The translations under genes and the position numbers were made by a program. 64,000 nucleotides of DNA from Gammaproteobacteria bacterium (GTDB lineage: Bacteria > Pseudomonadota > Gammaproteobacteria > Pseudomonadales > Azotimanducaceae): assembly GCA_012269545.1 (NCBI GenBank), contig JAAXKB010000048.1, positions 14,283-78,282 of the forward strand. Direction: 5' to 3'. Under the pieces are notes generated by a model. The model was not told the origin of the DNA. It did not search any database and was given only the letters and a program-made list of their open reading frames with translations. The number at the start of each line of letters is the position of its first letter. Positions within the stretch are counted from its first letter, which is position 1. This document shows, piece after piece, positions 59,312-64,000 of the stretch.

Positions 59312-60367
59312 ATGGCTTCTGGGGAAAAATCCGGGGATATTTTCGATCACGAGACAACGGTATTGGAGACATCGCTCGCGCTCGTTGATTCTGGCGCAGC
59401 GTCTGCAGATGATCATCAAAAGCTGACAAAGGAGTATCAAAAACTTTTAAAAACCACGCGCCGAATCATCAAACTCAGCGACAAAAGTGAGAAACGCCTG
59501 ACGGAATTGTCCCACGAAGCGCAAGAAACGAATCGCCAACTGGAAGGCCTTTCAAACCAGCTATCTAAATATCTGTCGCCGCAGCTGTATCAGTCAATAT
59601 TCACAGGCTCAAAAGCAGTCGCCAGAACGAGTTCCAGGAAGAAACTCACCGTGTTCTTCGCGGATCTGTGCGGCTTTACGAACATCGCTGAAAACCTAGA
59701 ATCCGAGGACGTGGCTGAGATGCTCAACCTTTACCTTGGTACGATGACGGAAATCGCCCTCAGCTATGGAGCTACCGTGGACAAGTACATTGGTGACGCT
59801 ATTATGCTGTTTTTCGGCGACCCCGAATCAAAGGGAGTTAAGGAAGACGCTATCAACTGCGTCAACATGGCCTTGGAAATGCAGCGCACGCTGAAAGGTA
59901 TGCAGGACAACTGGCATCACTATGGCCTGCAAGAACCATTGGAAATGCGTATCGGCATCGCAACAGGCTTCTGCACGGTCGGCAACTTCGGCAGCGATGC
60001 GCGTTTGGAGTACACCGCCGTGGGCTCTGGCGTCAATACCGCGTCCCGACTGGAAACTGCCGCTGACAATAGCTCCATTTTAATGTCCTTCGACACCTAC
60101 TCCTTAGTCTCAGATCGAATTCCATGCCAAGAACTGGACACCATCCATCTGAAAGGGATCGGCCCTGTAAGGACCTTCAGACCCGTTACCGACGACGAAA
60201 CTGGGCTATCCCGGCTGTCAGTGGAAATTGGCTCCTCCGCCATGAACACCGACGTCAGTCACCTGAGCACCGCAGAACTCGAGGCTGCTAGGGCATCGTT
60301 GGAGAAAGCAATCGAGAAAGTGCAGACGCACTTGAAGGAGGGATCGGCTCAAGAGTCATTGCTGTAG
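59312..60367 (+). CDS. class III nucleotide cyclase with N-terminal coiled coil
   Basis: A 351-residue soluble cyclase. Residues ~35-90 form a coiled coil (heptad-like KLTKEYQKLLKTTRRI), followed by the catalytic domain near 108-290. Metal aspartates are Asp118 (FFADLCGF) and Asp162 (KYIGDAIM). The base-recognition residues are Lys158 and Thr235 (EYTAVGSGVN), which points to ATP. Asn242 and Arg246 (VNTASRLE) are the transition-state pair. Thus cAMP is the likely product. AGAGGATC precedes the ATG. It faces the siaACB operon and stops 60 bases from siaB. Confidence 0.9.
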   Translation: MASGEKSGDIFDHETTVLETSLALVDSGAASADDHQKLTKEYQKLLKTTRRIIKLSDKSEKRLTELSHEAQETNRQLEGLSNQLSKYLSPQLYQSIFTGSKAVARTSSRKKLTVFFADLCGFTNIAENLESEDVAEMLNLYLGTMTEIALSYGATVDKYIGDAIMLFFGDPESKGVKEDAINCVNMALEMQRTLKGMQDNWHHYGLQEPLEMRIGIATGFCTVGNFGSDARLEYTAVGSGVNTASRLETAADNSSILMSFDTYSLVSDRIPCQELDTIHLKGIGPVRTFRPVTDDETGLSRLSVEIGSSAMNTDVSHLSTAELEAARASLEKAIEKVQTHLKEGSAQESLL

Positions 60368-60369
60368 CC

Positions 60370-60387
60370 GCCAACCAACCGGTTGGC
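60370..60387. terminator. stem-loop between the cyclase and siaB, putative bidirectional terminator
   Basis: GCCAACC (60370-60376) pairs with GGTTGGC (60381-60387) across AACC, just after the cyclase stop at 60367. Downstream CATTCTTTCTGC gives a modest T-rich tail on the plus strand. Confidence 0.55.
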
Positions 60388-60426
60388 CGTGCGGCATTCT
60401 TTCTGCGCTGCCAGACGAAAACGCAG

Positions 60427-60960
60427 TTAAGACACGTAACCCCGGTACACAAAAACCGGGCCATTCTCGGTGTCGGCGATTTCGAATTCAAAGCGCTGCA
60501 CTCTGCGAGCCATTTCAATGAAGCCTAAGCCCGCACCCTGGGACCCTTCCGGCGGTCCGCTACGCAGTCGTTCCTTATACATCTTCCGCAGCTCTTTAGC
60601 GTCTTTCATGCTCAACTCGAGCAGCGTGCTCTCAAGCGCTGTGCGCTTATCCGAATCAATGGCGTTAACCGCCTCAATAAGAAAGCCATCGTCCTCAGTG
60701 ACGCTAATGGCAATCGTACCTACGCCCTCTCCGGTATCCGCACGAAGGTTCGCGTAGCGGATGATATTCTGAGCTTGCTCTACAAAGACGCCAAAGACCC
60801 GTTTAGCGACCCCTTCGTCGGACTCTGACTCACTCAGTTGCTGTCGAACAGGATTAGAGATCTGAGTTAGCAGATCCTCTGACAGCGGACCTGAATAGCA
60901 AAACAGCGTACGCCGAGCCTGCATAAATTTGTGAAGCTCAAGTGTTTCATCATTAATCAT
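60427..60960 (-). CDS. siaB: SiaB-family protein kinase
   Basis: A 177-residue protein of the SiaB kinase family (DUF6272). In Pseudomonas aeruginosa SiaB phosphorylates SiaC and so inactivates it. Conserved parts are NIIRYANLRAD (GHKL-like N-box equivalent) and SQGAGLGFIEMARR (glycine-rich nucleotide loop). GGAG precedes the ATG. It is the third gene of the siaA-siaC-siaB operon, 50 bases behind siaC. Assignment rests on this combination and on context. Confidence 0.85.
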   Translation of the reverse strand: MINDETLELHKFMQARRTLFCYSGPLSEDLLTQISNPVRQQLSESESDEGVAKRVFGVFVEQAQNIIRYANLRADTGEGVGTIAISVTEDDGFLIEAVNAIDSDKRTALESTLLELSMKDAKELRKMYKERLRSGPPEGSQGAGLGFIEMARRVQRFEFEIADTENGPVFVYRGYVS

Positions 60961-61010
60961 GGGATGTCTCCGCGGGATTCCGAGCCGTTATCATCAGGGT
61001 AAAAACCATG

Positions 61011-61397
61011 CTATTGCGCATCACCCTCGCTGGGTGCCTGTACCTCTATCAGTTCGAACACGCAGGATTCGAGGTCTTCCCCAAAGTCCTCGCCGGCTTC
61101 CAGCATCGTGTCGTCATCCTCTCGGTAGTTCCAATTGACTTTAACCGCCAAACCCGCCGCTGCCTTCTCTTCAAAAAATTCAAAGAAATCAAAGAAAAAC
61201 TTTGCCGACGAGCTATTAAAGTAAAACAGTTCAAGGTCTACTGTGAATGAGCCGGCGTCTGGCACCACCGAGCGCAGCGTGGACATGACCGGAGCCGAGA
61301 ACTCCTGAATATTCTCCGGGTAACATTCCCCCACCATGCGGCATCTTGCTTCATTGATTTCAATGAGAGGGGTTCGTTGAGTTGCTGCTTGTTCCAT
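61011..61397 (-). CDS. siaC: SiaC-family regulatory phosphoprotein (DUF1987)
   Basis: A 128-residue protein of the SiaC family. In P. aeruginosa unphosphorylated SiaC binds and activates the diguanylate cyclase SiaD, and a threonine in the NTSS motif is phosphorylated. Here the corresponding segment reads FYFNSSSAKFFFDFF, so the acceptor would be a serine (Ser62-Ser64). The gene starts two bases after the siaA stop, and its GGAGG ribosome site lies inside the end of siaA. Confidence 0.87.
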   Translation of the reverse strand: MEQAATQRTPLIEINEARCRMVGECYPENIQEFSAPVMSTLRSVVPDAGSFTVDLELFYFNSSSAKFFFDFFEFFEEKAAAGLAVKVNWNYREDDDTMLEAGEDFGEDLESCVFELIEVQAPSEGDAQ

Positions 61398-61399
61398 TC

Positions 61400-63673
61400 C
61401 TATACCTCTTCTACGTCGGGAGTGATGACCTCGTCTGCACCCCCATTAATCGAAAACGCCAACAACGTCAGATCGTCTCGATACGGTGCACCGCCTCTGT
61501 AAAGATCGACACTTTTCATGACATTGCTCACCAAGCCTTCCGGTGTCGCTTGGGGAGAATTCTGCAGCGTTCTGAGCACTCGGCGGCGACCAAACGCAAT
61601 GGGCCGATCTTCGGCACTCATCACATCCGTAATGCCGTCCGTAAGCATCACAAACGCGCCTTGCGGGTTATCAATCACGTGCGTGTTGAATTGGAATGCC
61701 CCTCCGGAGCGAGACGAACCAACTGATTTGCGATCACCTTTGACTTCTTCAGCTCCCTTGTCATTGACCCAAAATAGAGAAGACTTCGCTCCAGCGAACT
61801 CCAAGCGCCGTTCTTTGCGGTGGTAAATACACACGCCGCCGTCAAAACCTTCGTCAATTTTCTCGTTTGAGTTATCTTGCTGGCTCAGAGTTTCCATCAC
61901 GAGACCATGCGCCTTGGACAAGTAGTCACCAGCATTTTGAATTTCGCGTTCGTCAATCGCCCGTTCCAGCACTGAACGCGCAATGATCGACAAAAAGGCT
62001 CCTGGAACACCGTGACCGGTACAGTCCACGACCGCGATATAGACGCGATCAGGCAAGCTGTGCACGAAATAGATGTCGCCACCCACCAAATCCCTTGGCC
62101 GCCAGTGCACTTTGAACGAAATATCGCCCGGGTATTGCTTCGGCAACAGGGCGTTTTGCAGACGCGCCGCGTAGCGGATGGAACTGTCGATTTCATCTCT
62201 CGTGCGAACCAACTCTTCCGTTCGCGCATTGATTAAGGATGACACTTCATCGGACATGCGTGAAAAAGCCACGCCCATCAATTCTATTGAAGCGCGCTCT
62301 TTTGCCGCATCGTCCCCCGACTCCACCTCTGAGCGCATATGCTCAATGTCCTCCAGCATGAGATCCTTTGCCCCGCCCTCCAGTTCTGACGCCAAAATCT
62401 CCATTTTTTCAAACATCAAATTGTCACGCTCCACTCGGCGGCGCGAACGATCAACCCGCTGCTCTTCTGCTTCGAGCAACTGTTCTCGATACTGATCAAT
62501 CGCCCCGGACAACCGACCCACCTCGTCTTTATCGGAAGCCAAAATCCGGCTGCGCTCTGGCATCTCAAGATTCAGGTCTCCTTGAGCCATACCTCGAAGC
62601 ACGTCAATAGCCACCCTAATCTGACCAAAAGCACCCCAAATCAATCCAAGAATAACGCCTACAACCATAATCACTGTCGCCACAACGCTGGCATTTGTGT
62701 TGAACGTCGTTTGCTGCTGCTGCCCGATACTCTCGCTCTGATCCTTGAAAATCAGCAGGCTGATCTCTTCTGCGGTGGCTTGATAACTCAACGGTATGGA
62801 CGTAATCGAGACGCCCAAATCGGTGATAACCTCACTGAACGTCGCATCCGAGGATTCTTCTGCCATCTGCGAGCCTCGCGCGACTAACTTGCGTAGGTTT
62901 GCCACGCCGTATTCCGTCGAATCAGACCCATCATCATCGTAGTAATCATCCAGACTGATGCTGTTGCCATTTGAACGCACGGCCAACCGCACCTCAAAGT
63001 CTTCGCTGAACAGTTCAAGGTTATCCACCAAGTTCTTGCCGACGACCACAAGGGCAACGGCTTCTTCATCAGCGTTCAGCACACCAAATGCAAGCGAGTC
63101 GTTTATCGACAGCGGCTTGTCGCCCGTAATATCGGTGATGCGAACGATGTTGCGAGTCGGACGCTGGATCGCGTCGCGTAAGAAACTATCGAAACTCAGG
63201 AAAAAATCGGGACGGGCAGATTTTCCGCAGGGGTCCGCTCCATGCAGGAATAGGCCGGACAAGCAGTACACCTGCCGCCCTGTGGTGGTATACGCCATCA
63301 CGAAACTGATTTCTTCGAGGTCAACAGCGTCGGCAAACAGCGTGTCAAAATAGCTGCGTGCCAAGTCGGGCCGATCGGACTCCAGCGCTGCAATTAACGG
63401 GTTACTATCTCCGGAATCGTCAAAAGCGTTTTCAAACGGATCCCAAAGACGAGTGATTTCCGGAGCGCCAAGCTCAGGATCGAATTGTTCGACCGAGCGC
63501 TCGAACTGGGCATCCGAGGCCGACAACCAAGCTGCACTGTAAGTCTGTGCAAGGGAATCGGACGTAAATTTTTGCGACGCATTGTTCAGCGTCTGATTGG
63601 AGACATAAAAAATAGTAAGAAGAACCGAGAAGCCCGTAATCAGTAGGGCTAGGAGTTTGTTGCGTATGGACAT
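61400..63673 (-). CDS. siaA: SiaA-like membrane PP2C phosphatase with sensor domain
   Basis: A 757-residue membrane protein. TM1 is near 7-25 and TM2 near 328-347. Between them is a ~300-residue periplasmic sensor domain. A HAMP segment, a long coiled coil (about 385-530) and a C-terminal PP2C/SpoIIE-type phosphatase follow, the latter with GGDIYFV (near 535) and DCTGHGVPGAFLS (near 549). In P. aeruginosa SiaA dephosphorylates SiaC. No clear ribosome site precedes the ATG at 63673. It leads the siaA-siaC-siaB operon and lies 56 bases behind a TonB-C gene. Confidence 0.9.
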   Translation of the reverse strand: MSIRNKLLALLITGFSVLLTIFYVSNQTLNNASQKFTSDSLAQTYSAAWLSASDAQFERSVEQFDPELGAPEITRLWDPFENAFDDSGDSNPLIAALESDRPDLARSYFDTLFADAVDLEEISFVMAYTTTGRQVYCLSGLFLHGADPCGKSARPDFFLSFDSFLRDAIQRPTRNIVRITDITGDKPLSINDSLAFGVLNADEEAVALVVVGKNLVDNLELFSEDFEVRLAVRSNGNSISLDDYYDDDGSDSTEYGVANLRKLVARGSQMAEESSDATFSEVITDLGVSITSIPLSYQATAEEISLLIFKDQSESIGQQQQTTFNTNASVVATVIMVVGVILGLIWGAFGQIRVAIDVLRGMAQGDLNLEMPERSRILASDKDEVGRLSGAIDQYREQLLEAEEQRVDRSRRRVERDNLMFEKMEILASELEGGAKDLMLEDIEHMRSEVESGDDAAKERASIELMGVAFSRMSDEVSSLINARTEELVRTRDEIDSSIRYAARLQNALLPKQYPGDISFKVHWRPRDLVGGDIYFVHSLPDRVYIAVVDCTGHGVPGAFLSIIARSVLERAIDEREIQNAGDYLSKAHGLVMETLSQQDNSNEKIDEGFDGGVCIYHRKERRLEFAGAKSSLFWVNDKGAEEVKGDRKSVGSSRSGGAFQFNTHVIDNPQGAFVMLTDGITDVMSAEDRPIAFGRRRVLRTLQNSPQATPEGLVSNVMKSVDLYRGGAPYRDDLTLLAFSINGGADEVITPDVEEV

Positions 63674-63729: not shown

Positions 63730-64000
63730 TCATTCCCCCAATCGGTAGGCCACTGTCATTCTAATGTCGTCGACCTGCGTCACCTCACCATCCACCTCAT
63801 ACGGCTTGAACTTCAGAGTTTCCATATAACGCATTGCGGAGCGATCAAACATTCGTCGCGGTTTTGATTCCACAATAACGGCACTTATCGCGTTGCCTTC
63901 CGTGTCCACCGAGAACCTCACTAGGACAGATCCGCTCACACCATAGGATTTAGCTCGACGTGGGAATACCGGCGTGCCTCGCTCAAGAAGCTCCACCTCC
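63730..64000 (-). CDS. TonB C-terminal-domain protein, C-terminal part (cut by right edge)
   Basis: The last 88-90 codons of a protein with a TonB C-terminal fold: PVFPRRAKSYGVSGSVLVRF, then VDTEGNAISAVIVESKPRRM, then FDRSAMRYMETLKFKPYEVD. These match energy-transducer TonB repeats that contact outer-membrane transporters. The first part lies outside the window, so anchor helix and Pro-rich linker cannot be seen. A GTG at 63996 could in principle be a start but more likely the frame continues upstream. Confidence 0.75.
   Translation of the reverse strand, partial: EVELLERGTPVFPRRAKSYGVSGSVLVRFSVDTEGNAISAVIVESKPRRMFDRSAMRYMETLKFKPYEVDGEVTQVDDIRMTVAYRLGE

Follow-up and report, generated by a model that had tools for sequence, protein, structure and literature searches.

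The closest described relative of the locus reported here is the SiaABCD system of Pseudomonas aeruginosa. According to passages of two papers (PMC8457831; PMC7647112), it consists of a PP2C-type sensor phosphatase (SiaA), a kinase (SiaB), a phosphoprotein (SiaC) and an output enzyme, SiaD, whose helical stalk bears an S-D motif contacted by SiaC. SiaABCD has so far been known as a cyclic di-GMP (c-di-GMP) device. The present locus lies at the right end of a 64,000-nucleotide stretch from a Gammaproteobacteria bacterium of the Azotimanducaceae (contig JAAXKB010000048.1, positions 14,283 to 78,282; hereafter the window), and is very probably a SiaABCD-type partner switch in which SiaC docks on the stalk of a class III cyclase, most likely an adenylate cyclase. 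It thus differs from SiaABCD in its class III rather than GGDEF output enzyme, and also in the single stalk motif (two in SiaD), in a Ser instead of a Thr at the phosphorylation site, in the gene order A-C-B and, in the clade of the window, in a cyclase gene convergent to the sia genes.

Other described proteins share individual traits with this locus. Single-motif SiaD proteins are encoded beside siaC in Burkholderiales and Alphaproteobacteria plasmids (for example L063 from Caballeronia and L060 from Methylobacterium); their stalk is homologous to that of the cyclase over ∼68 residues, but is followed by a GGDEF catalytic domain. In passages of PMC8457831 and PMC9239204, the HsbRA-HsbD and BgrSTUWV-BgrR systems also use a partner protein to control a nucleotide cyclase, with a regulator other than SiaC and c-di-GMP as the output, and the transmembrane cyclic AMP (cAMP) enzymes controlled by an ECF module in Campylobacterota are likewise partner-controlled, the regulator family again not being SiaC. 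A passage of the eLife 2021 paper (PMC8457831) puts forward a general modulating role for DUF1987 proteins, exerted on adjacent proteins. DUF1987 was mentioned in one paper within the open-access literature searched, and no account of SiaC joined to a class III cyclase, a link that the preliminary description of this DNA had thought undescribed, was found in that literature, including the parts seen of PMC8457831, PMC7647112, PMC9239204 and PMC12834913. The evidence below supports a real and conserved variant of SiaABCD, spread well beyond the window.

Four open reading frames (ORFs) make up the locus: the cyclase gene on the plus strand (59312..60367) and, all on the minus strand, siaB (60427..60960), siaC (61011..61397) and siaA (61400..63673). 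As the preliminary description held, the sia genes form a single minus-strand cluster compatible with an operon (gaps of 2 nt between siaA and siaC and 50 nt between siaC and siaB) and free of any GGDEF gene, which is adjoined convergently, 59 nt from siaB, by a gene for a soluble class III cyclase (351 amino acids; PF00211, E 1.3e-26). For all four products, the Pfam and NCBIfam assignments coincide. SiaC belongs to a family of STAS-like regulatory phosphoproteins (PF09345, E 6.8e-30, over the cut-off), and is related to the P. aeruginosa SiaC structure 6kko (E 1.5e-12). The HATPase-like kinase SiaB matches DUF6272 (E 2.8e-30) and SiaB_fam_kinase (NF038262, E 4.2e-42, over its cut-off); its N-box and G-box are present, with E61, N65 and G142/G144/G146 invariant among six aligned SiaB proteins. 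The C-terminal PP2C/SpoIIE domain of SiaA (residues 542–742; 61448..62050, minus strand; SpoIIE, E 1.2e-18) keeps, in line with its relatives (four aligned proteins), the Asp positions that I take to form the metal site. In a hydropathy scan with 19-residue windows, SiaA has hydrophobic segments at two places (window starts at residues 3–8 and 323–341), with ∼300 residues between them, consistent with a periplasmic region and with the periplasmic sensor proposed earlier. None of the P. aeruginosa-type NCBIfam equivalog models reaches its cut-off (SiaA, NF038263, E 4e-51, 174 bits against 700 bits; SiaB, E 5e-28; SiaC, E 2.2e-18), and the three proteins are therefore relatives, not close orthologues, of the Pseudomonas ones.

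The cyclase and its SiaD-type stalk

The preliminary description had recognized a coiled coil at the N-terminus of the cyclase, and proposed it as a dock for a partner; profile models and hhalign comparisons refine this to a stalk of the SiaD type. A phmmer search of the Protein Data Bank (PDB) with the N-terminal 108 residues found nothing related: its 18 matches, of which many are coiled coils, reached an E of 0.5 at best, and a single-sequence search was therefore insufficient. The NCBIfam SiaD model matched residues 30–93 weakly and below its cut-off (E 3.9e-4). I therefore built a stalk profile from the N-termini of 21 SiaC-adjacent proteins, all of the GGDEF type. The homologous stalk module of the cyclase comprises residues ∼8–75 (59333..59536, plus strand). 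Searched against 7093 ORFs from SiaC loci, this profile yielded 105 matches at E ≤ 0.01, 95 of them within 1 kb of a siaC: 33 GGDEF proteins (21 of which had served to train it), 32 class III cyclases, 3 PP2C phosphatases and 37 others. Of the 33 class III cyclases found in SiaC loci, 32 are thus matched by a profile derived from GGDEF proteins alone, 12 of them from the clade of the window. The sole miss (L148:5775-7844) is a stalkless cyclase beside siaB and siaC, with a weak dCache match below the cut-off.

These loci were sampled around siaC, so two controls were used, namely cyclases from outside sia loci and a whole-genome search. The 21 control class III cyclases gave no significant stalk match (best E 0.52, in a search of 95 ORFs). 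For the second control, an alignment of 19 GGDEF stalks (A1) was run on the 398 genomes of a Pseudomonadota sample already searched for SiaC, scoring at most 14 first-look candidates in each genome, so that stalks were possibly missed in either group. Among the scored candidates, a stalk was found in at least 54 of 67 genomes with SiaC, and in at least 1 of 331 without (G400, the only one, E 1.7e-4). Leaving out the 14 SiaC-containing genomes that supplied rows to A1, the first figure becomes at least 40 of 53. Five of the 13 SiaC-containing genomes without a match (G056, G382, G386, G465 and G700) possess a two-motif SiaD of the Pseudomonas type, which the single-motif model misses.

Direct comparison of the cyclase stalks (alignment A4) with the GGDEF stalks (A1) by hhalign gave a probability of 98.9 and an E of 2.3e-17 over cyclase residues 5–72. 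The N-terminus accordingly reads as a recognizable SiaD-type stalk, and not as any coiled coil. This bears on the possibility that siaACB and a stand-alone, non-interacting cyclase are chance neighbours, the stalk being a generic coiled coil. The convergent arrangement in the window would suit such a reading, as would the tendency of coiled coils to give spurious matches, exemplified by the 18 unrelated PDB proteins, none better than E 0.5; but the confinement of the stalk almost entirely to SiaC-containing genomes and the negative control cyclases, together with the genus co-occurrence and the operon linkage in distant lineages described below, make it very improbable.

The catalytic domain (residues 108–289; 59633..60178, plus strand) has as its closest solved structure that of P. 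aeruginosa CyaB (3r5g, E 2e-60), which I take to be an adenylate cyclase. D118, D162, T235, N242 and R246 show no variation across 16 aligned cyclases, and K158 almost none (one X). D118 and D162 are presumably the metal-binding pair, K158 and T235 the specificity residues and N242 and R246 the Asn/Arg pair of class III enzymes. In class III cyclases a Lys/Thr pair marks specificity for ATP, and since K158 and T235, which sit where the preliminary description had placed them, match this rule, the substrate is most likely ATP and the enzyme most likely an adenylate cyclase. A cGMP product is improbable: guanylate cyclases do occur among class III enzymes, and the specificity is predicted from two residues only, but both residues are conserved, and the nearest structure is that of CyaB.

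Models derived from the N-termini of the stalk-cyclases also match CyaB-type control cyclases, directly before the catalytic domain. The protein is therefore a chimera of three parts: the stalk (residues ∼8–75), a CyaB-like linker (residues ∼76–105, LSxxLSKYLSPQxY...; 59537..59626, plus strand) and the catalytic domain, with residues ∼76–290 forming a CyaB-type unit. A SKYLSPQ-type linker is common to the CyaB-type cyclases of relatives. Ten such cyclases, in ORFs of 454–505 amino acids, differ in having a longer N-terminal region, which presumably contains MASE2, and no SiaD stalk; the 107 residues preceding the catalytic domain here contain a SiaD-type stalk in place of this long region. With a SiaD-type stalk bearing a single SiaC-contact motif, and no GGDEF catalytic domain, the cyclase is not a SiaD but probably works like one.

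The genome of the window (G000; 2.85 Mb, 99% complete) contains one SiaC match and one GGDEF match, the latter being a GGDEF-EAL protein on another contig. Among the 14 of 37 first-look candidates that were scored, this protein has no stalk match, and the cyclase of the window is the only one that does (E 6.5e-11). A siaD-like diguanylate cyclase elsewhere in the genome, which the preliminary description had named as an objection to its own proposal, was thus found neither by the GGDEF search of the genome nor by the stalk model. SiaC might in principle act on a distant diguanylate cyclase, leaving the class III enzyme to obey something else, and the GGDEF-EAL protein would be the candidate target; its location and its lack of a stalk match among the scored candidates make this extremely improbable. 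PF00211 has three matches in the genome, the cyclase of the window and two stretches of one long frame on another contig. Four matches to the cyclic nucleotide monophosphate (cNMP)-binding domain were found, two being near-identical neighbours. On contig C16 a partial, near-identical copy comes after a gene for a cNMP-binding protein (L162, L163), possibly through duplication in the assembly. L163 has a canonical-looking FGEGAL...RNASAV cassette, as judged by eye; as a dedicated companion of the switch in a strict sense it was rejected, being present in 6 of 11 SiaC-containing and 2 of 26 SiaC-lacking genomes of the genus (Fisher p 0.004).

Co-occurrence and linkage to siaC

The genus sample comprises 37 genomes (G000–G036), of which 11 possess SiaC; 8 of the 26 without it are less than 90% complete. 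An orthologous cyclase (72–100% identity) is present in 10 of the 11 SiaC-containing genomes and in none of the 26 others (Fisher p 3e-8, relatedness left uncorrected). It is convergent to siaB in all 12 loci that have both genes, namely 10 from the genus, L039 and L043. Elsewhere the genes are co-directional. In L044–L047 (two Proteobacteria records, one SAR324 cluster and one Deltaproteobacteria bacterium record) the order siaC-siaB-cyclase-siaA is found on one strand; in L044 and L046 the cyclase ORF and siaB share 4 nt. In L090, L092, L112, L124 and L156 it is siaB-siaC-cyclase, again on a single strand; L090 and L092 have a gap of 3 nt. In other lineages stalk-cyclases are thus part of sia operons. 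A lack of conserved co-occurrence, a further objection that the preliminary description had named, is answered by the genus counts and these co-directional loci. The coupling between the Sia switch and the cyclase, which had been proposed from proximity only, is now well supported by co-occurrence and by these operons, and better than by proximity because the cyclase also carries a docking sequence homologous to that of SiaD proteins.

Directly upstream of siaA, a small TonB_C-domain protein is encoded (63730-64000, minus strand). Such a protein occurs at the same place in most genus loci reaching that far (e.g., L032:8013-8501).

Predicted docking motif and direction of control

In passages of PMC8457831, the SiaD residues contacted by SiaC are R74, K77, V78, R80, I81, S82, D83, R84, Y85, Q86, M88, R90 and D91, and T68 of SiaC lies between the helices at S82 and Q86. 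The alignments place a predicted SiaC-docking motif at cyclase residues 50–63, RRIIKLSDKSEKRL (59459..59500, plus strand), in which R51, I52, K54, L55, S56, D57, K58 and E60 correspond to SiaD K77, V78, R80, I81, S82, D83, R84 and Q86, respectively; SiaD R74, Y85, M88, R90 and D91 fall on T48, S59, R62, T64 and E65. The stalk of the window cyclase thereby keeps most of the published contact motif. All 104 aligned stalks, whatever their output type, have Asp at the D83 position, and the Ser at the S82 position is found in all 32 stalk-cyclases. On the side of SiaC, 6 of the 14 contact residues match P. aeruginosa exactly (Q10, Y31, Y65, N67, S69 and D114), with Y65, N67 and S69 unchanged as Y59, N61 and S63 in the window protein. 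Ser62 (codon at 61212..61214, minus strand) occupies the position of T68, and I infer that it is the phosphorylation site. Among 133 SiaC ORFs of the fetched loci this position holds Ser in 120, Thr in 12 and Arg in 1, so the Thr68 of P. aeruginosa is the minority state.

By analogy with SiaABCD, SiaB is predicted to phosphorylate SiaC, and SiaA to dephosphorylate it. A signal would reach the probable periplasmic region of the membrane phosphatase SiaA, whose PP2C domain would strip the phosphate from Ser62, SiaB putting it back. Unphosphorylated SiaC would dock on the helical stalk around residues 50–63 and, as in SiaD, steady a parallel stalk dimer, joining two catalytic domains that as a pair would synthesize cAMP; phosphorylation of Ser62 would free SiaC from the stalk. 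Both the binding of SiaC and its activating direction are carried over from SiaD. The coupling may therefore be real and of the opposite sense, with SiaC or its phosphorylated form keeping the cyclase inactive, or with phosphorylated SiaC being the form that binds. The positive direction was measured for SiaD, which in passages of PMC8457831 is on its own an inactive pentamer, a state that the cyclase may not share, and the cyclase stalk has one motif, not two. Against this, the phosphorylation site position and the flanking Asn and Ser residues are conserved, which makes binding of the unphosphorylated form the simplest logic, and an opposite sense is unlikely.

Several observations weigh against the proposal that SiaC activates the cyclase through a SiaD-like stalk. 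The cyclase stalks match those of two-motif Pseudomonas SiaD proteins (A5) weakly (probability 14, E 0.0019), that comparison placing S56 on S82, in the motif adjoining the catalytic domain. The GGDEF stalks of A1 match A5 at an intermediate level (probability 79.5, E 1.5e-5), and the connection with the SiaD studied by experiment therefore runs via single-motif SiaD proteins, for which no report of SiaC binding was found in the literature passages viewed. Within the motif, Q86 and Y85 of SiaD are replaced by E60 and S59, and, taken together, the published contact positions show no significant excess of conservation over neighbouring positions (p 0.16, 104 stalks). Of the 14 SiaC contacts, four are conservatively replaced (D29E, T68S, D79E and E110D) and four are changed (I71A, M75F, R103T and L107A). 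An AlphaFold model of the cyclase, in which residues 32–85 are drawn as a single helix, has low confidence scores (mean pLDDT 64, pTM 0.53), with pLDDT below 50 for residues 69–84 of the stalk helix. In the clade of the window the cyclase gene, being convergent to siaACB, is outside their operon. One SiaC-containing genus genome, G017 (99% complete), gave no orthologous cyclase, its SiaC contig ending inside siaB, and no stalk protein was found in 20 of the 80 SiaC loci of the Pseudomonadota survey described below. Finally, the Vfr/CRP-like protein encoded in the genome (Vfr, E 2.8e-45) is a doubtful candidate for the cAMP receptor: aligned with Vfr, it is gapped at the Arg and Ser that I take to belong to the cAMP pocket of Vfr, and so lacks part of the phosphate pocket there.

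Should class III cyclases prove to be driven by SiaC as well, a set of loci annotated just as SiaC family or DUF1987 gains a testable output, and the stalk motif offers a sequence handle for predicting SiaC targets in other genomes. It would also show how one partner switch could serve different second messengers, the catalytic domain being swapped behind a common docking helix, and gives named candidates to the general suggestion made for DUF1987 proteins in PMC8457831.

Other stalk proteins and their origins

The stalk-cyclases are part of a larger set of siaC-adjacent stalk proteins with different outputs. I surveyed the output per locus with the union of five stalk models (E ≤ 1e-3), some genomes giving more than one locus; many loci stop at a contig end, so partner counts are lower bounds where none was found. 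In Pseudomonadota, 83 SiaC rows minus three short or weak fragments left 80 loci, with GGDEF proteins in 23, other proteins in 26, class III cyclases in 10 (the window included), PP2C plus another protein in 1, and none found in 20. In the phylum of G330, inferred to be SAR324 because G332, the genome of L046, belongs to that searched set, 22 loci (25 SiaC rows) contained cyclases in 11, other proteins in 6 and PP2C in 1; none was found in 3, and in 1 the siaC ORF was not recovered. Apart from the genome of the window, the class sample contributed 10 loci (GGDEF 6, other 2, PP2C 1, none 1), with a stalk-cyclase in none of them. On plasmids, 7 of the 18 matching records were surveyed, giving GGDEF in 5, GGDEF plus another protein in 1 and none in 1.

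Of the 37 stalk proteins classed as other, 25 contain HD_5 and 11 contain HATPase_c according to Pfam. Stalk-GAF-HD proteins of ∼670–715 residues adjoining siaC (L122:7373-9451, L114:6913-8976 and others) are the commonest output beyond the cyclase and GGDEF types. In L081, L116, L147, L148, L067 and L055 the stalk is found on histidine-kinase-type proteins with HATPase_c and, in some, HisKA. One of them is a hybrid with two receivers and an Hpt domain; Sia switches may thus feed two-component systems. Soluble PP2C (SpoIIE) phosphatases near siaC also carry it (L054:6991-8001, L157:6108-7085 and L077:13107-14138), which suggests phosphatase cascades. Because the stalk is fused to GGDEF, GAF-HD, histidine-kinase-type and PP2C proteins near siaC, as well as to cyclases, SiaC probably has several kinds of output.

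In a tree of catalytic domains, 28 of the 32 stalk-cyclases group with CyaB-type sequences, and L095, L129, L131 and L133 fall in a different class III group. That all stalk-cyclases share one origin was rejected (p-AU 3.5e-80) in a tree that omitted the stalkless L148 and the long-branched control rows L183, L184 and L185; an earlier tree including these four needed 4 changes, at least 3 of them forced. As the stalk-cyclases do not form one clade, the stalk has become attached to class III cyclases on two or more occasions, or else a catalytic domain was replaced. It is likely that SiaC is a general-purpose, phospho-controlled activator with a portable stalk on at least five kinds of protein, the output being c-di-GMP, cAMP, an HD-type hydrolase or a two-component system, and that class III cyclases were joined at least twice.

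The SiaC-adjacent stalk-cyclase of L131 (L131:5263-6960) has in addition a C-terminal PilZ domain, so that cAMP and c-di-GMP signalling may meet in this protein.

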